Of a stretch of DNA of 64,000 bases, positions 2,836 to 61,732 are shown one piece after another. Under the pieces are notes generated by a model, which saw nothing but the letters and a program-made list of their open reading frames with translations, did no database searches and was not told the DNA's origin. The stretch is from positions 54,372,028-54,436,027 of the forward strand of contig OX638372.1 of the NCBI GenBank assembly GCA_951812925.1, in the 5' to 3' direction. The position numbers were made by a program, and so were the translations under genes. Each line of letters begins with the position of its first letter. The first letter of the stretch is position 1. This DNA is from Calliopum simillimum (taxonomy: Eukaryota; Arthropoda; Insecta; Diptera; Lauxaniidae).

Positions 2836-3765
2836 TTTTTATACCCTACACCCTGGCATGGTTGAGTTATCCTGGTTGCAGTGAGCGATAGCAAATGCTG
2901 CTACTTCTTAAACTACGGAAATGTCAAAATTTTCTAGTCTTTTGACAGATAGCAAGGCAAAATCAGGGTTCCATTTTTTTTTATTTTGACAACTTGCCAA
3001 AACCATTGTTATTGAATCATGCACCCAGGGTATATTCACATTGTCCTTCCGTTTGTAATGCAGAGAAGGAGGCGTGGCAGGTATGGAAAAGTATATATAT
3101 TCTTCATCAGCGTCACCTCTTGAGTCAATATAGCCATGTCCGTCTGTCTGGGTGGCTGGACATCTGGGTGTGCGTGGAAATACATTTGAGGCAAAATTGA
3201 GCAAGATAATTCAATGAAATTTGGTACTCTGCCTCCGTCGTTAAAGTTAGCTCGAGGGATTGAAAGAATATGTTCAAAACGGAATATTAAGAGCATTATT
3301 TGGGACAACGCAACCAAAATATACATAATTACTAAGGATAGTAAATACAAGCTCTGAGCAAAAACTAGACAAATTCAGACTAGAGGACATGGCACCTGCC
3401 ATATAAGCAAAAGGTTAAAAATGTTATACTGAAACCGTTATTTGAGATAATCCAACCAAATCCAACATTAACACCACGAACCGTAAAACCAGGCTCTGAC
3501 GAAAAACTAGGTGAATTCGGACATGAGGGCGTGGCACCTCCCATACAAGGAAAACTTTCAAAATGCTATGCTGAATGCGTTATTTGAGATAATCCAACCA
3601 TATTTCACTAAGACACTAAAAACAGTAAAGCCAGGTTCTGAGCAAAAACTAGGTAAATTAGGACTAAAGGGCGTGGCACCTCCCATATAAGCAAGAGTTT
3701 CAATATGTTATACTGAATGCATTTTTAAAGATAGTCTAACCAAATTTCACTTAAACACTAAAAAC
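2836..3765 (-). mobile_element. 142-bp-module repeat family, copy A (minus orientation)
   Basis: Read on the minus strand this copy matches the copy at 60640-61732. The terminus ATACCCTACACC lies at 2841, the conserved TGAGTCAATATAGCCATGTC core near 3120, and at least three tandem modules follow. The motif GGCACCT starts at 3391, 3533 and 3675, exactly 142 bp apart. The copy stops in the middle of a module near 3765, so the far end is missing. Short open frames inside it do not match the other copies in frame and are not genes. An unrelated insert sits at 2854-3026. Confidence 0.85.
2854..3026. mobile_element. Small insertion nested in copy A
   Basis: Comparison with the uninterrupted end at 61700-61728 shows that 173 bases split the sequence ACACCC/AGGGTATATTCAC. 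CACCC is present on both sides (2849-2853 and 3022-3026), consistent with a 5-bp target duplication. The insert has no obvious terminal repeats and no coding capacity. Confidence 0.55.
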
Positions 3766-6009
3766 ATTAATTGCAATTACATAAAAAATCATGTGGCCGG
3801 GAGGGAAAAGATAAATTTTTGGATGGCAATCGAAATAATAAAATTTTGTGTAGCGTAAACGATTGGATTTAAGAGGTTAAATAGTAAGCACCCTTAAATA
3901 ATCCAAGGATAATTACACATTTCGTTTTTTCCATACTTTGTGTCAATATTACATATTGATTTGAGTTCTTTATACCATACATCCAGCACAGGCATGATAT
4001 TCACACTACTCCAATAGTACTTTTTTTAAAAAAGCCAATAGTACTTTGGGTACTTTTTGTTTTTGCAGCCTTGGGTATAGGATATATAGAAAAGAAACAT
4101 TGCGCATAGTAAATTTTTTCGCTTCACCCGCGCGTTATTCGATGAGAGGACTGTTTATTTCAATTTAAATATATCATTATATAGAAATTTTCAAAATCAA
4201 TTAGTTTTTCAAATTAAATAAGTCTAAATTCAATTGCATTACATATAAAAAATCTAAAAAATTTTATTATTTAATGAATAAAGTTTATTTTCATAAAAAA
4301 AATACTGAAATATTTAATGTCGAAGTTTGGCGAACGTTGAATAAAATAAGGGTTAATGAAGCACAAAATCGTGAATCAAGAAATCCAAAAATATCACTTT
4401 CGTGCATAGAAAAAAGCCTTATTTTAAACACAGTGTATCCTGCACTCAAATCAATAAATGTACAAAGTTATGTTTACTATCTGTGGGCTTTTGACAAAAC
4501 AACCTAACTCAAAACTTACGAATAGCCAAAAAAGCATACTCGAATGTTATATTTATGACTAAAATAATGCAAAACTGTCTAATTTCGACATACATAGATT
4601 GTTTTGTTAAAAGTACTTAGATATTACTGTAATAATTCTTCTTCCAATGGTTTAGTATTTGGTAAATTTTTGGAAACTTGTTAGTAAAATCTCAGTACCA
4701 ACATCAAAGTTATAACAACAACAATTTGTTGACTTAATTAAGTCTTTTCCTTGTATCAGAGCTGAGCACGTAGATACCGCCAAACAATTTTGACATCTAG
4801 TTTTTATCAAGTTTTATTTAGAAAATATTCTCCGCACATTTGCAGAAGAAATCTCAATTGATAAAATTCCCTGTGCAATTCTGTATATATTTTCAAACAT
4901 CTTTTCTCCTAGTTAATTTTTTAATACATCCTACAATAATCCTATATGTCCCAGTGAAGTATTTTGTGAATTGCTATGGCAAGTTTGAATACTAATTTCA
5001 GAAAAAAAAGGAAAGGACTTTTTCGAGGCAAAAGTACTTCAGTACTTTTGTAATGTCAATAGTACCAAAAAAAGTACGATTCCACTAGAAATATCATCCC
5101 TGATCCAGCATAAATAAACTTTGTTCTTACTTACTTTACTTTCAGTCAAATCGCATATGTTACTTGTTCTGTCTAACATATTCTAATAAGATGAAAAATA
5201 ACCTTGTTCTTCCGTTTATAACGCTGATGAAAATCTGAAGGGAGTTTCCATTCTCGAGAATATGCTTTCTCTCTGAGAGGGAGCACAAGAAGTAGTGAAT
5301 ATTTTATGAATGGAACTCCCCTTCGTGTGGGAATGTTTTCTTATTTTAATATTGTTGACATTTTCAGATATAACCAGTTTGCAACGCTTTTTTTCCAATA
5401 CCGTAGACGTTTAGCACAAAAAAAAAAAAAAAAAAAAAAATTATCGACATTTTGCGCAAACAATCAGTTTGAATGTTAACTTTTTCCAAGACCGTAAGCA
5501 TTTTACACAAAAAAAAAAAAGTGGCAACGCTGTTTTTCCAATATCGTTAGTTTTGATATCTAACTTAAAAAATTAAGTGAAAGCTTTGCTTTTTTAATTA
5601 AAAAATGACTTTTTAATCATTTTAGTGGATTTTAAAAATCAAAAGTTGGCACCAAAAAATTAAAAAAAGAAAAAATAATATGAAGTGAAAAGTTGGAAAA
5701 GCTTGGATGGATATTAAAGATTTAAATGTCATATGAAAGCTATTTCAGTAAGCAATAAAATTGTACTAAGTTTTTAATTTGTCAAACGTTATTTAGAATT
5801 ACATATTCATTTATACATAATTATTCCCTAGCAAAAAGTTGAGTTAAATTTTGCATTAAACGTAAAAAAACTCGCTCTCAAACTATTGCCGATTGCCTTA
5901 TTTTTCCATCTAATTTTCCCCTTCCAGAAATTTTTTTTTACGATTGCAAAATAGGGAGTAAGAGAATAAATTCTCGAGAATATTTATTTACAATAAGGCC
6001 CTATATGTA
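3766..6009. other. AT-rich DNA without recognisable genes
   Basis: No coding signal or repeat family found elsewhere in the window was recognised. It holds A-runs near 5421-5441 and 5509-5520, a run of lysine/asparagine-rich random frames (for example 4274-4507), and two copies of a CAACGCTTTTTTTCCAATA phrase near 5382 and 5525. Confidence 0.4.
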
Positions 6010-6955: not shown

Positions 6956-7939
6956 GGCAATTTTATGTTTGGATTCGGCTTCGGCATCGAAAAATATATC
7001 GAAAATGACTAATCCTTGATGATGTTGAAAAAATAAGAAACAATTTAATGTCTCGATTGAATATGTGTATATGTCTCGTAACAGAGATTAGCTCTATTCT
7101 GGACTTAGTGAATAAACCTACTAAATTACTGCCTTCTAAATTAATAGAACCAAAATTGCATTTGTTCATTCACTTAATCTAGAATAGAGCTGTCACATTT
7201 CATCCGATCTTAGTCTCGCACGGACTCAAAATTTTCGTAATAAAATATGTTGCTAATAAAAAAAAAAGAATAAAATAAAAATAAATTTTTTAATCTTTCA
7301 ATTTTATTATTTTAAATGCTTATAACTCGAAAAGGTCGAATTGAAAGTGGTAAAAGTACGGGTTGTTTCAAGTAATTTTTAGCTATCCGAATCTATTAAT
7401 TTTTTTTTTTTTTTTTTTAATTATTGAATTGGTTGGCGGAAAAAAATTTTCTCAAAGTGCCAGGGTAAACTCTAGATTGAAGGAAAGGTTGTGAAACAAA
7501 AGTCAAAAAGACAATTTATAAAAGATCAATAATCTAAGTTTCTTTAATAAAATCAATTAATGAAGTATAATCAATTAGATTCTTAGAATTTAAAATTTGA
7601 AAAAGATTATTATATCGTAAGAATGAATCTATTAATAAAACTTAATTTAGCTATTTGCTGTTTTTGTTTATAGCTTTCAGTAGACATCAAAACACTTTAA
7701 AGCAAGGATAGCTCAGTATTCTGACGTGATAGAATTGTAAATAGGAGGTTCAAAAAAACTACGAGGAGGGTTGGAGGATAAAAAAAACGAACCATCGCGG
7801 ATTCTGACAACATCCAGTTTCCATTTTTCTTGGGGTCTTAATCTAGAAGAATCTGAGTTTTTGGTGCTCATATTTAGCATACTTGAGTTCATTTTAACTT
7901 TTGCTTTAAGATCGCGAAAATCAGTTTTTTGCAAATATC
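6956..7939. other. AT-rich DNA, nothing recognised
   Basis: No coding signal. Poly(T/A) runs occur at 7260-7268 and 7399-7419. The overlapping open frames near 7713-8031 lie opposite each other and run into the repeat copy that follows, so neither looks real. Confidence 0.35.
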
Positions 7940-8500
7940 TTGGGTTTGTACGGGAGTTGCAACGACTTCTTGTCCGAATTCACATAGCTTTTGCTCAGAT
8001 CTTGTACTTACTGTCCTCAGTGTCTGAGTGAAATTTGGTTGGATTATCTCAAAAAATGTTTTCTGTATAGCATTTTGAAGCCTTTGCTTATATGGGAGGT
8101 GCCACGCCCTTTCGTCCGATTTCGTCTAGTTTTTGCTCAGAGCTTTCTTTTATTGTTCTAAATGCTTGTGTGAAATTTATTTGGAGTATATCAAAAACGT
8201 TTTCAGTATATTATTTTGAAACTTTTGCTTATATGAGAGGTGCCACGCCATCTTCACCGAGTTCGCCTAAGTTTTGTTCAGAGCTTGCGCTTAAGGTTCT
8301 TAGTTTTTTATGTGTATTTTGGTTGCATTGTCGCGTAATAAAACTCCCAAAGTTACATTTTGAATATAGTTTTTGTTTGGGCGATAAGCGGAGACAGTGT
8401 ACTAAATTTCATCGAATTATCTTGTTCCCAAATAATATAAAAATGATTTCAACGGACAAACAGACAGACAGACTGACATGGCCTTATCGACTCATAAGGT
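7940..8500 (+). mobile_element. 142-bp-module repeat family, copy C
   Basis: Plus orientation. Two modules contain TTTGCTTATATG starting at 8083 and 8224 (141 bp apart), followed by the GGGCGATAAGCGG equivalent of the family's middle, an ATTTCATCGAATTATCTTG block and a CAGACAGACAGACTGACATG end near 8460-8480. Both termini are lost. A 136-aa open frame (8092-8502) is an accidental reading through the modules. Confidence 0.8.
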
Positions 8501-19500: not shown

Positions 19501-19840
19501 TCGGTATCATTTTCGTAAAAATGTGATCATTTTCTCAGGCTCATATCTTGCAAACCGTTCAGAATTTCGATTTACTCTCTGAGACAAAGTTGTAGCTCTT
19601 GTCATAAAGAACAAAAATTGCGAACATATAAAATCAAAAAAACTTCACCTTCCAGATCAAAATCGCAAAAAACTTTAAAAAATTCGATTTTTTTTTACCT
19701 TTTTTCCCGTGTTCAGGTCCATAGGTAGCAAACCGTTCAAAATTCAAGGAAACAATCAACTACAAAAATTTAACCTAAGATCTCAATAAACAAATTTCTA
19801 GAACATATAAACTTCCTAGAGATGATTCTTAACACTGTTT
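19501..19840 (+). repeat. Left terminal inverted repeat
   Basis: It matches the reverse complement of 22587-22925 throughout, with about 98% identity by eye in the outer 250 bases and slightly less at the inner end. It holds two direct copies of a roughly 30-bp unit centred on GCAAACCGTTCA (19537-19567 and 19714-19744), candidate transposase-binding sites. Confidence 0.95.
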
Positions 19841-20190
19841 AGGTAGCACCCAAAAGTGAAAAATTTGCCGAAAATTTTTTAATCTCACTTTTTAATAAAA
19901 ATCTGGTTTTCTCAAAAAACAGCCCTAGTAAACTTATTTATTCCTAGACTCCGTAAAAGACAACACTTCAAGCTTTTTTTTAAGGTATAATACTCCGCAT
20001 TTACACTTCTAAGACCGGAGATAGTGAGGTTTTTCTAACAAAAGTACTTTCAACAAAAATGTTGATTGTAAATAATTGTCAGTGAGGAGGCCGACTGTGT
20101 GAGTGCACTGTACCTTCAATGATAGTAAGTGCATTCTAATAAAAATTCTCAAGCTGGTGGGTGAGTTCCCGTTTCCAAACTATTAAACAA

Positions 20191-20344
20191 CTACCTGGAA
20201 GCAAACATCTGCATTGAATTCACATAAAAACAAGCCAAAATATAAAAATACCTGGAAACACATTGTCATAAAGATGAAATTGTGAACATATAAAATCAAA
20301 AAACTTCTATCAAAAAACTACCTGGAAGCAAACATCTGCATTGA
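20191..20344 (+). repeat. Subterminal direct repeats before the promoter
   Basis: CTACCTGGAAGCAAACATCT plus the next seven bases occurs at 20191-20217 and again at 20318-20344. The interval also carries a displaced copy of inner TIR wording (GTCATAAAGATGAAATTGTG, GAACATATAAAATCAAAAAA) and GACCGTTTAGGTAGCGC echoes 19834-19850. These could be binding sites or scars of rearrangement. Confidence 0.8.
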
Positions 20345-20393
20345 CCGTTTAGGTAGCGCTTAGGTATCACGCACCGACAGCAGCAGCACACAA

Positions 20394-20430
20394 TATAAAA
20401 GCGACACGACGCTCACATCGAGGCATTACA
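20394..20430 (+). promoter_or_regulatory. TATA-type promoter of the transposon gene
   Basis: TATAAAA at 20394-20400 lies in a locally GC-richer stretch with TCACATC (about 20413) and GCATTAC (about 20423) as possible initiators. The distance to the chosen ATG (20505) leaves a leader of about 80 bases. Confidence 0.6.
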
Positions 20431-20504
20431 CAGCGCGACGTCAACGAGAGCTCAGCGGTGAAAGTTATAAAGTGACAGTGAAAGTAAAAAAAGTGAAAGT
20501 GTTA

Positions 20505-22497
20505 ATGCATAATTCGCACACAACATTGGCAACTGACAATTTCAATATGCAGTGTGAAAAAATTGATTTATTTTGCTACGTTTGCGGTCATCAAACCAGA
20601 AAAAAAACATCTACAAGATTTCAGAAGGAAAATAATCTTTTAACTAGTAAATTCAAAAGAGCATATACATTGTTTTTCGACGAAGTGGACTTGACCGGTG
20701 AAAATTACACACCTAATACAGTGTGTCGCCAATGTTATAACAATCTCATGGCATGGTTGAGTGGAGGCAGAGGTACTATGAAGTATTGTAAGCCGGTAAA
20801 CTGGATTAATCGCCCAGGTGATCATGATGCAACCAGTTGCTATGCATGCGTAAATTACACATGTGGTCTAAATCGACATGCTGAGAAGATCAAAATTTAT
20901 AAAGCAACTGCAACAGCCACACTACCAGTGCTTGTACCTGAAAATTTTGTATCACCAAGGCCGCCAACTCCAGATCGTAGTACAGAATGTACAGGAATGA
21001 CTAGAGCAAGTGGTGTTACTTATGAAGATCCATTTGATACCGATTATGAGCCCCAACAGGGAAGAGATGGACCACAACTAATAACACAAATGGAAATGGA
21101 TTTCATTGTGGCCATATTGGTATTATCGCAGCGACTTGCAATATTTTTGACAGCTTTTTTAAAGCAAAGAAAACTCACACATGCTAATGTTAACTCTACG
21201 GCGTACCGCAAACGACAAGCTGAATTTCAGATGCTCTACACTCTAAATGATGACAATTCGTTCGCTTACTGCAACGATATAAAAGCTTTGGTGGTAAAAA
21301 TGGGAATGAACTACATCGCTAGTGAGTGGAGATTATTTATTGATGGTTCTGTTTCAAGCTTGAAAGCAGTGTTGTTGCATGTGTCGAACCGAAAACCTTC
21401 CATTCCGCTAGCAATGGGTATCAACATGAAAGAAAGCTATGAAACATTGAAAGATATAATGGAAAAAATCAAATATTACGAAAATAAATGGAAGATTTGC
21501 TGTGATTTGAAGGTCATCAACATTTTGCAAGGGATCATCGATAAGGGCGGCTTCCCAAAATTCTTTTGTTTTCTTTGTAATTGGGATTCACGCTCACCTC
21601 TGAATCAATTCCAATGTAATTCGTGGAGGCCAAGAGGAAGTGTGGATGAACAAATACAACAACATAGACTGAAGAATGCACCTTTAACTGACAATACTCA
21701 AGACATCTTGCTGCCACCGCTCCACATAAAATTGGGAATTGTTAAAAAATTCATCGAAGTGGCCGTTGTAAATTATCCAAACGCATTCGACTATTTGAAA
21801 AGCGTTTTCCCAAAGCGTAGCGATGACAAAATTAAAAAAGGTATTGTAGTAAATTTAAAACGAATTTTTGTTCACCTAATTGTACTATTTACACTATGTT
21901 AATGTTTTCTTTTCTGTCTTTATATTTTGTTTTCATTTAACAGGCGTACTTAATGGCCCTGACATTAGAAAGCTATTCAAGAGCAACTTTGATTCATCGC
22001 TTGATGAAAATCATTCAATGGCATGGATTTGCCTTCAGCGTGTATGCACCAGAGTCTTGGGAGGGGATCGAGACGCGGAACCGGAAGCAAGAGAATGGGT
22101 GAAAGAAATGCTGCATTATTTTGAGATAATCGGCGCATCGATGACATTAAAGCTGCATTTTCTTCATTTTCATTTTGACGATTTTATCAAACAACTCCCT
22201 ACCGAATCCGATGAGCAAGGAGAACGGTTTCACCAAACCACAATGCCAATGGAAAAACGGTACAAAGGCAAAAACCTCGACGCATTGCTTGCAGAGGTAT
22301 GTTGGTGGAGTCACAAGATCACCCTGTATGATGTTAATGAAGTATTTGAAGAAGAAAGAGCTGATGATGGAGGGCAGTCTGGAAGCAACGTGCCTGTGGA
22401 CACCATAAGTTCTGAATCAGAGTCAGATTCGGACGACGATTTGGATCCACAACTCAAGAGAGCGCGATTTGCAAGTCCAGGGCCATCAACATTATAA
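20505..22497 (+). CDS. Transposase-like protein of an unnamed animal family (2 exons)
   Basis: Exons are 20505-21840 and 21944-22497. The 103-bp phase-1 intron runs GTATTG to AACAG, and the junction KIKKG/VLNGPDIRKLF restores a motif typical of the family. The product is 629 aa. CxxC pairs at C24/C27, C74/C77 and C112/C115 form a likely zinc-binding DNA-recognition region. A block at 276-345 (LFIDGS with D280, LKAVLLH, KICCDLKV with D334) resembles the first strands of an RNase H-fold DDE nuclease. C355/C358 form a CxxC insertion, and SDEQGERFHQ (534-543) offers E539 as the third acid. The tail at 600-612 is acidic and serine-rich. I recognise homologous proteins across animals, usually unannotated; the DDE reading is inference. 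The frame can open at a GTG at 20472, but the first ATG is 20505. The gene lies inside perfect TIRs. Confidence 0.9.
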
Positions 22498-22563
22498 ACA
22501 TAATACGAATACTTTTTTTTAATATTTTTGTAATAGATAGCATAGTATCTCAATGTTGAAGTA

Positions 22564-22569
22564 AATAAA
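22564..22569 (+). promoter_or_regulatory. Poly(A) signal of the transposon gene
   Basis: AATAAA lies 67 bases after the stop and before the right TIR, so the transcript can end inside the element. Confidence 0.65.
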
Positions 22570-22586
22570 AAACACATGAAATTAAA

Positions 22587-22925
22587 AAACGGTGTTAAGA
22601 ATAATTCCCAGGAAGTTTATATGTCATAGAAATTTGTTTATTGAGATCTTAGGTAAATTTTTGTAGTTGATTGTTTCCTTGAATTTTGAACGGTTTGCTA
22701 CCTATGGACCTGAACACGGGAAAAAAGGTAAAAAAAAATCGAATTTTTTAAAGTTTTTTGCGATTTTGATCTGGAAGGTGAAGTTTTTTTGATTTTATAT
22801 GTTCGCAGTTTTTGTTGTTTATGACAAGAGCTACAACTTTGCCTCAGAGAGTAAATCGAAATTCTGAACGGTTTGCAAGATATGAGCCTGAGAAAATGAT
22901 CACATTTTTACGAAAATGATACCGA
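22587..22925 (-). repeat. Right terminal inverted repeat
   Basis: This is the inverted partner of 19501-19840. The two GCAAACCGTTCA units are present here too in inverted orientation (around 22682-22712 and 22859-22889). Confidence 0.95.
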
Positions 22926-23069
22926 GGCCCCAAATCTTTGGCGGCCCATAAAAAAAAAAGTGGAGGACTTTGGGAAAAATTGGGAGACACGGGCCTTTTT
23001 TTTTTTAGTCTTTTATCACGTAGTGGTGTCCGTATATTGTTATTTTGCCATGACTTAAAAAATTACACA

Positions 23070-24035
23070 CAGTGTTATCTCAAAAAATGCTTTCAGTATA
23101 GCATTTTGGATCTTTTACTTATATGAGTATAACATTTTGAAACTTATGCTTATATGGGACTTGCCACGCCCTCTTTTCCGAGCTTATTTAGTTTTTTCTA
23201 AGAGCTTATGCTTACTGTTCTTAGTGTCTGAGTGAAATTTGGTTCGATTATCTCAAAAAACATTTTTAGTAAAACATTTTGAAACTTTCTCGTATATGCA
23301 CTCAGAAAAAAAAGGTTGCTTGGAAAGTATTTGCGGCAAATTATCGAATATTTGAAACAAACACTTATTATTTCAAGCAAACATTTATCTTTTGTCCCAA
23401 CTGATAAGTATTTGCAGCAAACACTTGGCAAAATATTTCACTTGATACAAATCAAAAATAAGTCGTCGGGAATATTTCTATAACTTCGATGAACCATTTC
23501 ATGAATTGTTGCACCCAAATCTTTTTATCGCTTGCGACAAATCACAAAAATATTTGGCATCCATAGGCGCGGGTTCAAGTCCCAGTGTGGGTCATTTTTT
23601 TTTTAATTTTTTTAATTTTTTTTATTTTATATTTTTTTTTAGTTCACTTCTCTATTTTCCTTTTTTTTAATTTATTTACTTTTGTTTATTAATTATATTG
23701 AAATTAAATACACAATAAAGCATTCGAATATTAAAGAGCGTATAAAAATTGTATGCCTAGTATTTATGTGTATTTTGATTGCATTGTCGTGAAAAAAACT
23801 CATAAAGTTACATTTTGAATATATTTTTGGTATGGGCGGTAGGCGTATCCGTTGATCGATTTCGCTCATTTTCAATCCCACATGTTAACTTTACGACGAA
23901 GCAACTGTGCCAAATTTCATCGAATTATCTTGGCTAGTTTTTCCGTGAAAAATATTTCCACGCACAGACATACACCCAGCCAGCCAGCCAGACGGGCATG
24001 GCTATATCGACTCAGGAGGTGACGCTGATCATATA
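23070..24035 (+). mobile_element. 142-bp-module repeat family, copy D, interrupted
   Basis: It starts inside a module (TTATCTCAAAAAATGCTTTC), has at least two shortened modules, is broken at 23299-23755 and resumes with TATTTATGTGTATTTTGATT. It then continues through the GGGCGGTAGGCG block, CAGCCAGCCAGCCAG and the core GACTCAGGAGGTGACGCTGA near 24010-24030. Confidence 0.8.
23299..23755 (+). mobile_element. Insertion with B-box/T-run module inside copy D
   Basis: About 457 bases interrupt the repeat. The left part is rich in AAATATTTG/AAGCAAACA wording. At 23568-23590 GCGCGGGTTCAAGTCCCAGT fits a tRNA B box and is followed at once by T-runs. The tail after that (TTTTCCTTT...TTGAAATTAAATACACAATA) matches the tail after the B-box modules at 32950 and 33150, defining a shared family. 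Confidence 0.6.
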
Positions 24036-33899: not shown

Positions 33900-34984
33900 T
33901 AGCCCAGGAAAATAAGACATTTTCTGCGAAAAAATTCCTAGTGGAAATTTTTCACCGGGATTGTCTTTATTTATGCATGATACACAAACTGTGAAAAGTC
34001 CATTGCAAAGTCGTGTGCGCATAAAAAGTTATTCGGGCTCAAAGGTCGCTAAAATCAGTTTTTTGCAAATATCTCGCTAATGCTTACTTTTACAGAAAAA
34101 TGTTGGTCTCCAATTTTGTAGCACAGGAAATTTCCTACAAAAATACGTTAAAAGTATTTGCGTACAACTTCTAGCTTAGGAGATCACCCAATTTAAAAAG
34201 TTGTTAACAGTTATGATATGAAATACTACCCATGAGATCATATTAAAGTATCTTACTTTTTAAATTGCAATAACTCTTCAATGAGAAGCTGTACAAACAA
34301 AATTAAAATGCCGTTTGAAAGATAATTTAATTTTCTATATACCGTACAAATTTTTTTTTTTTCGAACCGCTCATGGCCTTAAAAATATTTTTGAATAACC
34401 GTTAAGGCTTCGAAATTACTGGTTTTTTAAGGATATCTGCGAATTGGTAAGTACTACGAAAAAAAGTAATGGGACCAAATTTGTAGAGAATTACAAGATC
34501 TACAAAAAATAAGCGATATGTGTACACATAGAAGTAAGCCGTTCGTAAAAAAAAATTTTGTACGGTATATAGAAAATTAAATTATCTTTCAAACGGCATT
34601 TTAATTTTGTTTGTACAACTTCTCATTGAAGAGTTATTGCAATTTAAAAAGTAAGATATTTTAATATGAACTCATAGGTAGTATTTTATATCATAACTGT
34701 TGACAACTTTTTAAATTGGGTGATCTCCTAAACTAGAAGTTGTACGCAAATACTTTTAACGTACTTTTGTAGGAAATTTCCCGTGCTACAAAATTGGAGA
34801 CCAACATTTTTCTGTAAAAGTTAGCATTAGCGACATATTTGCAAAAAACTGATTTTAGCGACTTTTGAGCCCGAATAACTTTTTATGCGCACACGACTTT
34901 GCAATGGACTTTTCACAGTTTGTGTATCATGCATAAATAAAGACAATTCCGGTGAAAAATTTTTTGTCTTATTTTCCTGGACTA
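33900..34984. mobile_element. 1085-bp giant palindrome (fold-back element)
   Basis: The arms run from TAGCCCAGGAAAATAAGAC (33900) to about 34360 and from about 34555 to the mirrored GTCTTATTTTCCTGGACTA (34984), with a loop of about 200 bases. Identity between the arms is high over more than 400 bases. TA at both ends fits a TA target duplication. A degenerate half-copy seems to end at about 40606. There is no coding capacity. Confidence 0.9.
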
Positions 34985-36170: not shown

Positions 36171-37384
36171 GTTAGGTTAGGTTAGGTTAGGTTAGGTTAG
36201 GTTAGGTTAGGTTAGGTTAGGTTAGGTTAGGTTAGGTTAGGTTAGGTTAGGTTAGGTTAGGTTAGGTTAGGTTAGGTTAGGTTAGGTTAGGTTAGGTTAG
36301 GTTAGGTTAGGTTAGGTTAGGTTAGGTTAGGTTAGGTTAGGTTAGGTTAGGTTAGGTTAGGTTAGGTTAGGTTAGGTTAGGTTAGGTTAGGTTAGGTTAG
36401 GTTAGGTTAGGTTAGGTTAGGTTAGGTTAGGTTAGGTTAGGTTAGGTTAGGTTAGGTTAGGTTAGGTTAGGTTAGGTTAGGTTAGGTTAGGTTAGGTTAG
36501 GTTAGGTTAGGTTAGGTTAGGTTAGGTTAGGTTAGGTTAGGTTAGGTTAGGTTAGGTTAGGTTAGGTTAGGTTAGGTTAGGTTAGGTTAGGTTAGGTTAG
36601 GTTAGGTTAGGTTAGGTTAGGTTAGGTTAGGTTAGGTTAGGTTAGGTTAGGTTAGGTTAGGTTAGGTTAGGTTAGGTTAGGTTAGGTTAGGTTAGGTTAG
36701 GTTAGGTTAGGTTAGGTTAGGTTAGGTTAGGTTAGGTTAGGTTAGGTTAGGTTAGGTTAGGTTAGGTTAGGTTAGGTTAGGTTAGGTTAGGTTAGGTTAG
36801 GTTAGGTTAGGTTAGGTTAGGTTAGGTTAGGTTAGGTTAGGTTAGGTTAGGTTAGGTTAGGTTAGGTTAGGTTAGGTTAGGTTAGGTTAGGTTAGGTTAG
36901 GTTAGGTTAGGTTAGGTTAGGTTAGGTTAGGTTAGGTTAGGTTAGGTTAGGTTAGGTTAGGTTAGGTTAGGTTAGGTTAGGTTAGGTTAGGTTAGGTTAG
37001 GTTAGGTTAGGTTAGGTTAGGTTAGGTTAGGTTAGGTAAGGTAAGGTAAGGTTAGGTTAGGTTAGGTTAGGTTAGGTTAGGTTAGGTTAGGTTAGGTTAG
37101 GTTAGGTAAGGTTAGGTTAGGTTAGGTTAGGTTAGGTTAGGTTAGGTTAGGTAAGGTTAGGTAAGGTTAGGTTAGGTTAGGTTAGGTTAGGTTAGGTTAG
37201 GTTAGGTTAGGTAAGGTTAGGTTAGGTTAGGTTAGGTTAGGTTAGGTTAGGTTAGGTTAGGTTAGGTTAGGTTAGGTTAGGTTAGGTAAGGTAAGGTAAG
37301 GTTAGGTTAGGTAAGGTAAGGTAAGGTTAGGTTAGGTTAGGTTAGTTTAGGTTAGGTTAGGTTAGGTTAGGTTAGGTTAGGTTA
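36171..37384 (+). repeat. (TTAGG)n array, about 243 units
   Basis: The unit GTTAG is repeated without a break from 36171 to about 37030. After that it continues to 37384 with scattered GTAAG variants and one GTTTAG. TTAGG is the ancestral arthropod telomere repeat. The array is interstitial here, flanked by ordinary AT-rich DNA on both sides. It could be an old telomeric insertion or a microsatellite expansion. Confidence 0.97.
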
Positions 37385-37736
37385 AGGCAATAGGCAATAA
37401 TACCACACATAGACCACAAGGGTTCTCTTCTTTAGCCTCTTTTTTGTTCAAGCTCCCTCTTTTTCTCCCGAAAATGAATGAAAGATGCTAAAATCCTTTG
37501 CTACCAATGCGTTGCAACTTGCAAGTGTTACCATATCATAAATTTTGTTGTATTTTTTCTACTCGCGAGTTTGACACAGACATGCAGTTTTTGTTTGTAT
37601 AAGACACAGTACACTGAAGTATTTGCTAGGTTTCTCTTCACACTGATAAAACAAGAATGTATACTTTATTGTCAAAATGAAGTCTTGATTTTTTTGTGTC
37701 AAATACATCAGTTCAGTGTAAAATACGAGTGTAGAG

Positions 37737-41011: not shown

Positions 41012-42549
41012 CACGGTGATACGGAAGAAAATTATTTACGTATAAAAGTGTCGCTAAAATCGGTTGATATGAAAAAATTTGTGTTTTTTTCCTGATTCAG
41101 AATCTGTTTTTAGCGAAATCCTATCACATCCCCTTCAAAAGTTATACTAAAAATACCTTTTAATAAGTATTTTTGGAATTCTTCAATTAAAAATATGTTG
41201 TTACATTTTCATAAGGTTACGAAGCTTCTCGAAGGTAATAGGGGAGGCCTAGATTTACAAAAAATTGCACCCCGTGGGGGTCTAAAATGTACCCCTAAGG
41301 AGTTATAGGGTTAAAACTGATTTTCTGCCTCTTTTCAGAAAAAAAAATTTTCTTGGATCACCCTAACGTTTTAGGGAAAACATTTCTATGGCAAAGATTT
41401 AACTAATTGTAAGAGCTTTCAGACAGTGTATATGGTTTATAGAGTTTAAAAGGATTTCGCAAAGTTCTGGACCTTTAAAATTGATATTTTAATTATTTTT
41501 CCCCATTTTTTGACTTTGATGGCCTTTTTAGTATGAAAAAGGTCCTATTAATATAGCTTTTCGTAATTCTTTTTGAAATCTTCGTTAAATATTCTTTCAT
41601 CCGATAGTACATTTGTCATACCAATTTTTTTGATTGAGGTTAGACAACAATACTTTTCTATGTAACACACGTGTTACTCGCATGCGTTGCGCTGCATATG
41701 ATGTAGTGCACGGTGATACGGAGGAAAATTATTTACGTATAAAAAAAAGAAAATTATTTACGTATAAAAGTGTTGCTAAAATTGGTTTGGATGATAAAAT
41801 TTATTTTTATTTTGCTGATTCAGAATCTGTTTTTAGCGAAATCCTATCAGATCCCAATTAAAAGTTATACTAAAAATACCTTTTAATAAGTATTTAAAGG
41901 AATTCTTCAATTAAAAGTATGTTATGTTACATACATACATACATATATGTTGTATATATATGACAAATGCACTATCATATTAAAGGATATTTAACGAAGA
42001 TTTCAAAAAAAAATCACGAAAAGCTATAGTAATAGGACCTTTTTCATACTAAAATGGCCATCAAAGTCAAAAAATGTGGGAAAAAAATTAAAATATCAAT
42101 TTTAAAGGTCCAGAACTTTGCGAAATCCTTTTAAACCCTATAAGCCATATACACAATCTGAAAGCTCTTACAATAAGCTAAATCTTTGCCATCGAAACGT
42201 TTTCTCTAAAACGTTAGGGTGATCCAAGAAAATTTTTTTTTCTGAAAAGAGGCAGAAAATCAGTTTTAACCCTATAACTCCTTAGGGGTACATTTTAGAC
42301 CCCCACGGGGTGCAATTTTTTGTAAATCTAGGCCTCCCCTATTACCTTCGAGAAGGTTCGTAACCTTATGAAAATGTAACAACATATTTTTAATTGAAGA
42401 ATTCCAAAAATACTTATTAAAAGGTATTTTTAGTATAACTTTTGAAGGGGATGTGATAGGATTTCGCTAAAAACAGATTCTGAATCAGGAAAAAAACACA
42501 ATTTTAGCGACACTTTTATACGTAAATAATTTTCTTCCGTATCATCGTG
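41012..42549. mobile_element. 1538-bp fold-back element with about 600-bp arms and TGAC duplication
   Basis: The left arm 41012-41622 starts CACGGTGATACGGAAGAAAA. The right arm 41958-42549 is its inverted copy with few mismatches. TGAC flanks both sides (41008-41011 and 42550-42553), a plausible 4-bp target duplication. The central spacer contains a second start, CACGGTGATACGGAGG at 41708, followed by a direct copy of the first 190 bases of the arm. Relatives are at 46024-46725 and 11570-12118. No transposase is encoded. Confidence 0.9.
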
Positions 42550-44060: not shown

Positions 44061-45000
44061 ACAAACAAACAAAATTAAATATTTTTACAGCAGTTGATTT
44101 TTGTCAGTATATTTTATTTCCCTCAAACTGTGGTTTGCTTTCATAAAAAATCAAGAAACCGAAATAGCGTCGTCAAACAAAAACATTGTTGTTCCGTTTC
44201 GCTGGGCATTGCTTCACTTCACCATCAATTCATTCATTCACCACAGCGCACAAGGGTGAATAACAATGGAAAAAATGCGTGATTTGTTACCACCTCCTAT
44301 AAGTATGCAATGTTATTTTCTATTTGTATTTGTTTTTTTATTGCGTACGTGATTGCTGTTCTTATAATTCGAAAGAACTTTTTCGTTATATGATTTGTAC
44401 AAGTTCGTGTTAACAACATAGTATGTGGCAGCAGCGGCGCATGTTGTTCGAGTCTTTCATGATTGTCTTTCGGGGTTACAAACGAGTTCTTGGTAACTCT
44501 AATAAAACTTTTCCGCTCGCGGTTAGTTTAATTCCTCCACCCTGGGGAAAGTCCCCGGGCCTAGGATAGAAAGTATCCAAGGTGTAAAAAGTGTTATTAA
44601 AATAGCAAAAGTGTTATTTAATAACATTCGCCTATATTTCGGGGAAATCCGCCATTGCGTTTAATGAAGACATTCTAACGAATCGAATTTTGCAATTGGT
44701 GTCTCCGGAAATGTGCCAGAATTTCTAAGAAATCGACAGTTAAGTGGAATTCGTTCTGCTTTACACTGAATGGGGCTTAATTTGAGAAATTCGAACAACC
44801 AAACTGCTTTTTTGTTTTATGTGTGTTTGTTTTACTTTAATTTTGTAAACAGTTTTATGTTATTTAATGACAAATAGAACGCAATTATTTGATTTACTGA
44901 AAATTTATGACTGACGCCTACTAAGCGAACTTTTGCTAGGCCCTCCGTATAACAATGAACCTGCTGTAGTGAGGCGAAAATCGTTAAAAAACCGCAACAT
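44061..45000. other. Intergenic DNA
   Basis: No gene recognised. At 44919-44955 CTACTAAGCGAACTTTTGCT with AGGCCCTCCGTATAAC is nearly identical to 51730-51766, just after a mariner relic, so it is probably a transposon end. Confidence 0.35.
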
Positions 45001-50763: not shown

Positions 50764-51664
50764 GTGAATGCCAAAGAGCATTTGAAGTTAATGCGCCAGC
50801 CCTTCCTGACTATTTCAAAGTGGTTCCGAATATTCCAGACAGGTCATTATTCTGTGGAGAACGAACCTCAAGAGGGCCGCTCAAAATCTTCTAAAATTGA
50901 CAAAGATCCAAGATTGTTCCAGGAAATCATAGCTGAGGAACTGGGCTTGAATGCCATGGCTGTATCGCGAATAATAAAAAATGATCATGGATACACGAAG
51001 AAATCTGCACGATGGGATTTTAAGTGATGCTCAAAGTATTTTCTTGAAAAATTCAAAAACGGAGAGTCTCACACATTCAAGAAAATTGTAACAGGTAATG
51101 AAGCATGATTTTACAAGTACGACCCTGAAACCAAACAACAATCCATGGCATGGAGCCCGGAAGGTGCAAATCACCTAGTAAAGCGAAGCAACAAAAGTAA
51201 TGAAGTCAGTTTACTTCACCAGAGAGAAAATTGTAGCTGATATTTCTTTGAAAAAAGTTCAGATGGTTACTACTAAGTAATATACTGAAACCTGCTTACC
51301 AAAAGTTTTCCAATATTTATTGGGAAAACGCCAAAAAAAGGAGCTTAGGCGCTACTTTCTACATCACGATAGTGCGCCAGCGCACACTGCTGAAAAAACG
51401 ACCGATTTTATTGCGCTTTCAGGCATCGAAGAAATTCGTCCAGCACCTTATTCCTCAGATCTAGCGCCTTGTGACTTCTGGTCGTTTTCAAAAATAAAAA
51501 AAAAAAATTTGAGAGGGAGCGTCTTCAACAGCAATGTGGAGATAATAAATGCGGTTAGTGATAAAATTGTAAAACTGCTAAAAGCCGATTTTGAAGGCTA
51601 TTTTTCAAGCTGGATTTATCGACTTCAAAAATACTTATATCAAAATAAATGGCGATTACGTTGA
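50764..51664 (+). pseudogene. mariner-type transposase, nearly full length but broken
   Basis: It begins with an N-terminal helix-turn-helix region (HLKLMRQPF, EPQEGRSKSS, then an ELGLNAMAVSRII helix). A stop at about 51026 is followed in frame-shifted pieces by VTGNEA, where the first catalytic D is N, and YDPETKQQSMAW. The last open stretch (51320-51664) has HHDSAPAHTA and YSSDLAPCDFW with 34 residues between the second and third aspartates, the DD34D signature of mariner. Several stops and the lost first D make it inactive. Confidence 0.92.
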
Positions 51665-54747: not shown

Positions 54748-55975
54748 CAGGGTGGCTGATGAATATTGCTACATAAAGAAAGTTAAACAACTTTTTTTTT
54801 TAATTCATTTTGCTTTCATTCATTTACATTTATATTTAGTTTAATTAAGTAGTTTTAAAAATTAAAGAGTTTAAATGGCCTCCACGCTCGGTGACGCATA
54901 AGCGGCATCTTAGTAAAAAGTTGTTCATAACTGTGTGAAGAGTTGCAGCAGGAATCGCTGCAATTATTGTTCGAATGGATTGCTTTAAGTCGTTCAAATT
55001 TGCTGGTTTTGTTTTATAAACTTCCTGTTTGCAATAACACCATAAGAAAAAATCAGGTGCAGTAAGGTCAGGCTGGGCAATGTGAGGAGTTGCACCATCT
55101 TGTTGAAACCACACAGAGTTGAGAGAGATTCTGATTCGGCGTAATTCTGGGTAAAAAAATTCTTTTAACATTTTTAAGTAACGGTCTTCAGTGACCGTAA
55201 CAGTAGCACCGTTCTTTTCAAAGAAGTAAAGCCCGACAATGCATTTTGATGAAACTGCACACCACAATGTGGCGCGTAGTGGATGCAATTCCGTCTCATG
55301 GAGTATTATGGGATTATAATCACTCCATATTCGACAATTTTGTTTGTTAACATTGCCATTTAGGTCAAAATGAGCCTCGTCAGGCATAAAAATACAGTTT
55401 GAGACGTTTTCATCCTCTTCCACCATTTGAAGGATCTTCTGGCAAAATTCCAAGAAAATCGGCAAGTCTGCTGCATTCAGTTTATTTGTATGGAAACAAA
55501 TTCAAATTTTTGTGCATAATTGTCTGCAGTGACTGTCTGCTGGTACTTATTTGGGCAGATAAGCTCCATGTCGAAATTCTGGGATTGGCTTGTATGACAG
55601 CAGCTTCATTATAGCTCCGAGCAGATGAGCTATGATGAGGCTCCTAAAAAATTTTGCCGAGCACGAGACAATTGAAAGAAGGCCTCATTATCGAAACGCT
55701 TCAGTTCGGACGCAGGAAACTATCGCTGCTGTAGCTGCTGCTCCGAGCAGCTGAGCTATAATGAGGCGTGCGCCTATATTCTCTTTGTACTGAAACTACG
55801 GACTTCAATGCGTGATAACGGCGGACAATCCAAATTCTTGTCTCAGTGTCCCAATCCTCCATTTTCGTTAAATCTAAAGATTAATCTGTAAAATAAAAAA
55901 AAAAATGGAAAAGATTAATTGGTTAAAAAAAACGTTATAATATTTTTTTGGTAGCAGTTTTCATCGGCCACCCTG
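54748..55975 (-). mobile_element. Tc1/mariner-superfamily element with 25-bp TIRs
   Basis: CAGGGTGGCTGATGAATATT (54748) and AACTGCTACC-type inner bases pair with the inverted end GCAGTTTTCATCGGCCACCC TG (to 55975), with four mismatches over 25 bases. A degraded transposase gene fills the 1228-bp interior on the minus strand. The right side has TA next to the end; the left side reads GT, so the TA duplication is not intact. Confidence 0.85.
54845..55878 (-). pseudogene. Tc1/mariner-superfamily transposase pseudogene
   Basis: The N-terminus MEDWDTETRIWIVRRYHAL at 55860 reads into an altered, stop-containing middle (around 55450-55780). From 55465 a 206-codon open frame holds FMPDEAHFDLNGNV (first catalytic D), WFQQDGATPHIA (second) and DLTAPDFFLW (third). 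Compared with relatives I recall, about 25 residues are missing between the second and third motifs, so DD spacing is destroyed. The C-terminus (RTIIAAIPAATLHTVMNNF, GGHLNSLIF) is well kept. Confidence 0.9.
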
Positions 55976-58792: not shown

Positions 58793-59518
58793 GGGCCTGG
58801 ACAAACATTAAATACCCTACACTGCAGTATTTTGGAAATTTTGCTTGTACGGGGGATGCCACGACCACTTCTCCGAATTCTTATAGCTTTTGCTCAGATC
58901 TTATAATCAGTGTCTGAGGAAATTTGGTTGCATTATCTCAAAAAATGCTTTCAGTATAGCATTTTACATCTTTTACTTATGTGGAAGTTGCCACGCCCTC
59001 ATGTCTGAGTTCGCCTTGTCTATGATCAGAGCTTGCAGTAACTGTTCTTAGCGTCTGAGTGAAATTTTGTTGGATTATCTTAAAAAACGCTTTCAGTACA
59101 GCATTTTGAAACTTTTGTTTATATGGGAGATGCCACGCCCTTTCCTGCGATTTTGCCTAGTTTTTGCTCAGAGCTTGAGCTTATCGGCTCTAGTATTTTT
59201 GTGTATTGTGGTTGTATTGTCGTGAAAAAGTTACATTTTGAATATATTTTTTATGTGGGCGGTAGACGTGTCCGTTGATCGATTTCGATCATTTTCAATC
59301 CCACGAGTTAACTTTTACGATAAAGTATCTGTTCTAAATTTCATCGAATTATCTTGGTTAGTTTTCGCGTGAAAAATATTTTCGCGCACAGCCAGCCAGA
59401 TAGACAGATGGACATGGCTATAACGACTGATCAAGAATATACATATATACTTTCCTATACCTGCCACGTCTCCTTCTCTACGTTACAAACTGAAGGACAA
59501 AGTGAAGGGTACAAAAAC
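58793..59518 (+). mobile_element. 142-bp-module repeat family, copy E
   Basis: It starts GGCCTGGACAAACATTAAAT and then ATACCCTACACTGCAG. Modules begin TTTGCTT-like at 58840, 58972 (10 bp short) and 59114. It continues with GGGCGGTAGACGTGTCCG, the CAGCCAGCCAG block and the GACATGGCTATAACGACTGA core, ending GTGAAGGGTACAAAAAC near 59518. Confidence 0.9.
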
Positions 59519-60440: not shown

Positions 60441-60639
60441 GCCGATCAATTGCTCAAGCTCAAGACTGTATCTTATACGGAAATATCATCGTCATCTATA
60501 AGTTTCTTTGATATTCAAATTTGACGTTGGTACTTTTGTGTATTAAATTTTACAGAACATAGTTCGCTATATTCGTATTCTTGTTACTCTTTTTAGGGTC
60601 TTAGATGTACAATAGAAAGCTTAACTAGTAAGGGTGTAA

Positions 60640-61732
60640 ATTTTGGCCTGGCCAAAAAATAAATACCCTACACTGCAGTATTTTGAAAATTTTGCTTATA
60701 TGGGAGGTGCCACTCCCTCTTGTCCGAGTACACCCAGTTTTTGTTCAGAGCTTGCATTTATAGTTTTTAGTGTCAGAGTGAAATTTTGTTGGATTATCTC
60801 AAAAAACTCTTTCAGTATAGCATTTTGAATCTTTTGCTTATATGGGAGGTGCCACACCCCCTTGTCTGATTTCATCCAATTTTTGCTGAGAGCTTTCATT
60901 TATAATTTTTAGTGTCTGAATCAAATTTGGTTCGAATATCTCAAAAAACGCTTTCAGTAAAGCGTTTTGAAGCTTTTGCTTATATGGGAGGTGCCACGCC
61001 CTCTTGTCCGAGTACACCCAGTTTTTTTTCAGAGCTTGCATTCATAGTTTTTAGTGTCAGAGTGAAATTTAGTTGGATTATCTCAAAAAACTTTTTCAGT
61101 ATATCATTTTGAAATTTTTGCTTATATGGGAGGTGCCACGCCCCCTTGTACGATTTCAACCAATTTTTGCTGAGAGCTTTCATTTATAATTTTTAGTGTC
61201 TGAGTCAAATTTGGTTCGAATATCTCAAAAAACGCTTTCAGTAAAGCGTTTTGAAACTTTTGCTTATATGGGAGGTGCCACGCCCTCTTGTCCGAATTCG
61301 CTCAGTTTTTTATCAGAGCTTGCGCTTACAATTCGTAGTACTTATGTGTATTGTGGTTGCATTGTCGTGAAAAATACTTCTAAAATTGCATTTTGAATAT
61401 AATTTTTGTATGGGCGGTAGGCGTGTCCGTTGACCGATTTTGCTCATTTTCAATCCCCCGAGCTAACTTTGACGACGAAGGCAGTGTACCAAATTTCATT
61501 GAATTATCTTGCTCAGTTTTCCCAAAAAGTGTATTTCAACACACAGCCAGCCAGCCAGCCAGCCAGCCAGCCACCCAGCCAGCCAGCCAGCCAGACAGAC
61601 GGACATGGCTATATCGACTCAGGAGGTGACGCTGAACAAGAATATATATACTTTTCTATACTTGCCACACCTCCTTCTCTGCGTTACAAACGGAAGGACA
61701 AAGTGAATATACCCTGGGTGTAGGGTATAAAA
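60640..61732 (+). mobile_element. 142-bp-module repeat family, copy F (most complete)
   Basis: ATACCCTACAC at 60663 and its complement GTGTAGGGTAT ending 61728 enclose 1066 bp. GGCCTGG upstream at 60640 is shared with copy E, so the true end may lie further out. Five modules carry TTTGCTTA at 60691, 60833, 60975, 61117 and 61259, exactly 142 bp apart each time. Then follow the GGGCGGTAGGCGTGTCCGTT block, an AGCC microsatellite (about 61549-61590) and the GACATGGCTATATCGACTCA core. The open frames across it are products of repetition, not genes. Confidence 0.95.

Follow-up and report, generated by a model that had tools for sequence, protein, structure and literature searches.

Chapaev transposons are described by CAC..GTG termini and a transposase with C(2)C, LH and H(4)H motifs, and Chapaev3 elements by a TWA target duplication, with insertion always between A and T; the genes of two Chapaev3 elements, Garfield and Merrow, consist of two exons (PMC4079192). 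Chapaev has been grouped with EnSpm, Mirage, Transib and others as CMCT (PMC12730594), and Transib, TransibSU, Chapaev and Chapaev3 have been treated as clades of one superfamily, in which Chapaev3 stands distant from the other Chapaevs and a Chapa zinc domain is shared by RAG1, TransibSU, Chapaev and Chapaev3 (PMC4411706). For the RAG system itself, which assembles antibody genes, the origin of the 12/23 arrangement of recombination signal sequences (RSS) is described as unsettled, and amphioxus ProtoRAG already favours asymmetric ends (27/31; PMC8289069); invertebrate RAG-like enzymes have been suggested to be relatively insensitive to such asymmetry (PMC7204232). Here we analyse a 64,000-nt stretch of Calliopum simillimum contig OX638372.1 (the window, whose coordinates are used throughout), in which a transposon remnant with a complete right end and a truncated left end occupies positions 19501..23074 (+). 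Judged by the published hallmarks, we are highly confident that it is a left-truncated copy, with an open transposase gene, of a cut-and-paste transposon of the Chapaev3 kind (CMC/CMCT group) that was active recently. The two ends in its family and in five related families differ by about one helical turn.

The boundaries were derived from other copies in the same genome (690 Mb, 334 contigs), where a search with the window arm gave 53 matches from 40 scored of 273 candidates; 32 loci were fetched, of which 25 allowed two arms to be placed. An earlier note on this DNA had described an intact transposon with 340-bp inverted ends about 98 % identical. Long inverted arms are indeed present at 19501..19840 (+) and 22587–22925 and agree at 329 of 340 aligned positions (96.8 %), 7 of the 10 mismatches falling within the innermost 40 nt, but their outer bounds are not the termini: in all 25 other two-armed copies the repeat continues outward past 19501 and 22925 on both sides. 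Beyond 22925 both ends of these copies have about 121 bp more in common before they diverge, and the family ends lie where the copies cease to match and where the duplications sit. In the window the right arm thus extends over 22587..23046 (−), followed by the terminal part of end A (23047..23074, −), which is complete to the true right end at 23074 and reads CACTGTG inward from 23074 to 23068. The left arm is cut off at 19501, where about 138 bp are missing compared with copies of 3908 bp. Because this end is lost, the window copy is not intact and shows no target duplication of its own; it is unable to move by its own two ends, although it might still be a source of transposase through its gene. 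The idea of a palindromic CG or TA duplication at 19501/22925 was considered and dropped, as the true ends lie elsewhere. Damaged ends were also found in the copies L019, L025 and L032, and 12 arms from the genome search carry a second partial copy of the inner part of the arm (about 150 bp; L016, L019, L009 and L010 among them), which the window copy lacks. Within the left arm, a 32-nt motif at 19535..19566 (+) recurs at 19713–19744 (81 %) and is mirrored in the right arm; these copies are possible candidates for transposase binding sites.

Both ends were readable in 24 of the 25 two-armed copies (L025 left out). An exact target duplication, the feature which the earlier note had proposed to define from other copies, was found in 22 of these and is 3 bp long in each (TAA 12, TTA 5, ATA 2, TTT, CAA and AAA once each), so that TWA accounts for 17/22. 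The remaining two, L018 and L027, show TAA at one junction and TTA at the opposite one. The duplication is preceded by A in 15 and followed by T in 17 of the 22 copies, a majority only compared with the "always" of PMC4079192. In the window, end A stops inside a 142-bp satellite-like repeat and is followed by TTA (23075..23077, +); the uninterrupted site ..A TTA TCTC.. occurs in several further copies of the satellite within the window. This repeat is dispersed over 3263–3776, 7922–8309, 23075–23991, 58809–59415 and 60539–61570, the transposon sitting in one copy. Divergence between the window copy and 15 other near-full copies is 0.5–0.8 % (a sixteenth, L027, was misaligned and is left out of this figure), and 9 of the 32 fetched loci have two full-length exons free of stops and gaps, a count that covers neither start codons nor splice sites. 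The family is a young one of a known transposon group, and the many copies with target duplications bear out the view that it is a DNA transposon.

Between the arms lies a two-exon gene without internal stop, as the earlier note had reported, although its protein comprises 615 amino acids and not 629. At the position of the upstream ATG (20505), 15 of 16 other aligned copies have TTG and one has TTT, whereas the ATG at 20547 is kept in 16 of 17 aligned rows, the window included, and we therefore take the latter as the start. Exon 1 (20547..21840, +) encodes an N-terminal zinc domain, D266, D320, C341-x2-C344 and L392-H393, and exon 2 (21944..22497, +, with the stop) encodes H503-x4-H508 and E525, so that the C(2)C, LH and H(4)H motifs and the DDE residues are all present. 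The 103-nt GT..AG intron between them (21841..21943, +) coincides with extra residues in the relatives P0002, P0003 and P0028, as if unspliced there. The TATA box and poly(A) signal ascribed to the gene were recovered as a TATA-like box at 20394..20401 (+; TATAAAAG at 20394, one of three upstream matches to TATAAA) and AATAAA at 22564..22569 (+).

The protein belongs to a family of over two thousand clustered relatives, for which the best 120 matches were listed in each search. None of those listed carries a precomputed Pfam domain or the name Chapaev3. Organism names accompany a few of them; these are animals, and their proteins are called uncharacterised, hypothetical or unnamed, in agreement with the earlier description of a common but unlabelled family; a Pfam entry for it would be deserved. 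No relative was found in scans of viral contigs or of prokaryote genomes, BFVD gave no fold match below E 1e-3, and the peptide LPPLHIKLG had no match in the literature text searched. A model of the close relative P0009 shows a RAG1-type catalytic fold, which points to a predicted RAG1/Transib-type RNase H catalytic domain (D, D, E and a C(2)C..H(4)H zinc site) behind the N-terminal zinc domain; together with the target duplications of the copies, this makes the protein very probably a transposase, as had been proposed. The N-terminal domain (20547–20936) is similar to the insect ZAD domain and shows a weaker likeness to the N-terminal region of RAG1 (RAG1_imp_bd, E 0.083; RAG1 chain 21wb_A, E 0.28–0.4). 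A zf-AD domain above the Pfam cut-off was not found in the window protein, and a fold search of the PDB with the N-terminal domain alone gave nothing below E 0.001. This domain of the transposase and insect ZAD zinc-finger proteins may have a common origin.

The most likely mechanism is cut-and-paste transposition by a RAG1-type DDE enzyme, a chemistry suggested by fold, motifs and duplications. In this scheme the inner repeats would be recognised by the zinc domains and CAC would be cut by the DDE site. The excised element would then be joined to a target staggered by 3 bp, mostly A-TWA-T, and the one-turn difference would cause a long end to pair with a short one.

This difference is seen when the two ends of the window family (family A) are compared. 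Genome patterns starting with the respective heptamer bases and allowing up to 3 mismatches matched end A with 5′-CACTGTG in 26/26 and end B with 5′-CACAGTG in 32/32 cases, both read inward. The spacer from the heptamer to ATATACGGACACC is 30 bp at end A, the long end, in all 24 of the 26 matches that were measured, and 20 bp at end B in 29 of 32 matches (19 twice, 21 once). Further families were obtained from a genome search with the relative P0106, and both ends were located for five: B (L042–L044, L061–L063), C (L048, L064–L069), D (L071–L074), G (L059) and H (L045, L070). This set leaves out L041, L046, L047, L057/L058 and L060, whose ends were not found or not fetched, and matches of the P0106 search without fetched flanks. 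Exon 1 of the window shares 33–41 % identity with the matching portions of B, C and H; with G the identity is 39 % and 27 % over two stretches. The ends of all five families begin with CAC, and exact 3-bp duplications were present in 10/10 copies, TWA in 8/10. Their outermost 12–18 bases are identical at both ends without offset, and the inner repeat is then displaced by 10 (B), 11 (C), 10 (D), 10 (G) and 11 bp (H), as computed on one copy each, G and H being single copies. For family A only the first 3 bases agree unbroken. A homopolymer run makes offsets of 11 and 10 tie as the best, at an identity of 0.69, and 10 follows from the block that is shared first. When spacers are counted from base 8 up to this block, they measure 20/30 in A and 12/22, 13/24, 11/21, 9/19 and 11/22 in the others; these absolute values hinge on the chosen block start, whereas the difference between the ends does not. 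We read the ends as bipartite with a one-helical-turn asymmetry, formally like the RSS with their 12 and 23 bp.

Several points weigh against filing the element under Chapaev3, an assignment made by hallmarks. Neither the window protein nor six relatives contain a Pfam family above its cut-off; DUF1280 (PF06918), which has been assigned to Chapaev transposases (PMC3985635), gave no match in these proteins at E up to 10 and none in 82 relatives at E up to 0.1, and sequence-level PDB matches are non-transposases except for the weak one to the RAG1 N-terminal region at E 0.28. All this would suit the undescribed superfamily that the earlier note had thought possible. That proposal is nevertheless very improbable in our estimation, as the CAC..GTG termini, the TWA duplication and the C(2)C/LH/H(4)H motifs are the hallmarks published for Chapaev3, and thus, by hallmarks, the match to a named superfamily that was to speak against it has been found; the remoteness of Chapaev3 from other Chapaevs would account for the missing DUF1280 match. 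A Transib or RAGL-type element, closer to RAG1 as a sister than Chapaev3 is, could be read from the best Z, which is equal for RAG1 and Transib, and from the heptamer CACAGTG, which equals the RSS consensus given in PMC8289069. However, such elements make 5-bp, GC-leaning duplications (PMC8289069, PMC4411706), whereas the duplications here are exactly 3 bp and A/T-rich, and identity to RAG1 and Transib is only 12–13 % over the best structural alignments of the P0009 model, leaving this placement with hardly any probability.

Within the Chapaev3 assignment, the meaning of the end difference is far less settled. We tentatively propose, at somewhat less than an even chance, that Chapaev3 transposons use a 12/23-like pairing rule, by which a RAG1-fold transposase would bring a short end and a long end together in one synapse. 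The offset might equally reflect shared ancestry or chance without function, a reading to which we likewise give a probability a little short of one half. The six families are related, which makes their agreement weaker than six independent cases would be, the inner blocks of B and C are alike by eye, and a resemblance to the RSS nonamer sought 11 and 21 bp from the heptamers was at chance level (8 % in each end). On the other hand, the offset is 10 or 11 in 6/6 families, while identity at offset 0 stays at the background level of 0.24–0.33 in every one; by eye, no relation is apparent among the blocks shared in A, D, G, H and B/C; and the long end lies 5′ of the gene in B, C, D, G and H but 3′ of it in A, with a difference of the same size. 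No link between Chapaev and asymmetric ends was found in the literature searched, which did not include Repbase Reports, so that absence from print is not shown; the main text of PMC4079192 contains no word beginning with "asymmetr" or "subterminal".

As the element itself represents a young family of a known group, its ends matter more. If a pairing rule of this kind holds true, a bipartite signal with one-turn asymmetry would not be private to vertebrate RAG and would be present in a RAG1-related lineage outside RAG and Transib. A group of RAG1-fold transposases with a repeated one-turn end difference offers a simple and testable outgroup for studying the origin of paired asymmetric signals.

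Elsewhere in the window, a long (TTAGG)n array spans about 36171 to 37500, deep inside the 117-Mb contig; this is the ancestral arthropod telomere repeat. An RNase MRP RNA gene lies at 44449–44792 (+; Rfam RF00030, 107 bits). Two fold-back structures, at 41075–42505 with 500-nt arms (96 %) and at 33945–34962 with 416-nt arms (97 %), are perhaps non-autonomous elements. The reading frames 51281–51664 (+) and 54845–55501 (−) have no Pfam match at 1e-3, but by eye they resemble decayed mariner/Tc1 transposases.

Compared with known systems, the element is alike to other members of the CMCT group (EnSpm/CACTA, Mirage, Plavaka, ESTA, Lanisha) in C(2)C, H(3–4)H, CA..TG termini and 2–5 bp duplications, a likeness drawn from their published description, the members being other transposase families (PMC12730594). 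From RAG1, Transib and ProtoRAG it is set apart by its shorter duplication, by the low identity and by the transposase gene being the only gene found between its ends; the spacer difference of ProtoRAG is 4 bp (PMC8289069) instead of one helical turn. To the Chapaev3 elements Garfield, Merrow and Conan, as described in PMC4079192, it is alike in CAC..GTG termini, TWA duplication, C(2)C, LH, H(4)H and DDE. It shares the two-exon gene with Garfield and Merrow at a different intron position, and differs in element length (3.9 kb versus 2.3–2.5 kb for full Garfield and Merrow), in protein length (615 versus 556–562 amino acids) and in its long inner inverted repeat.
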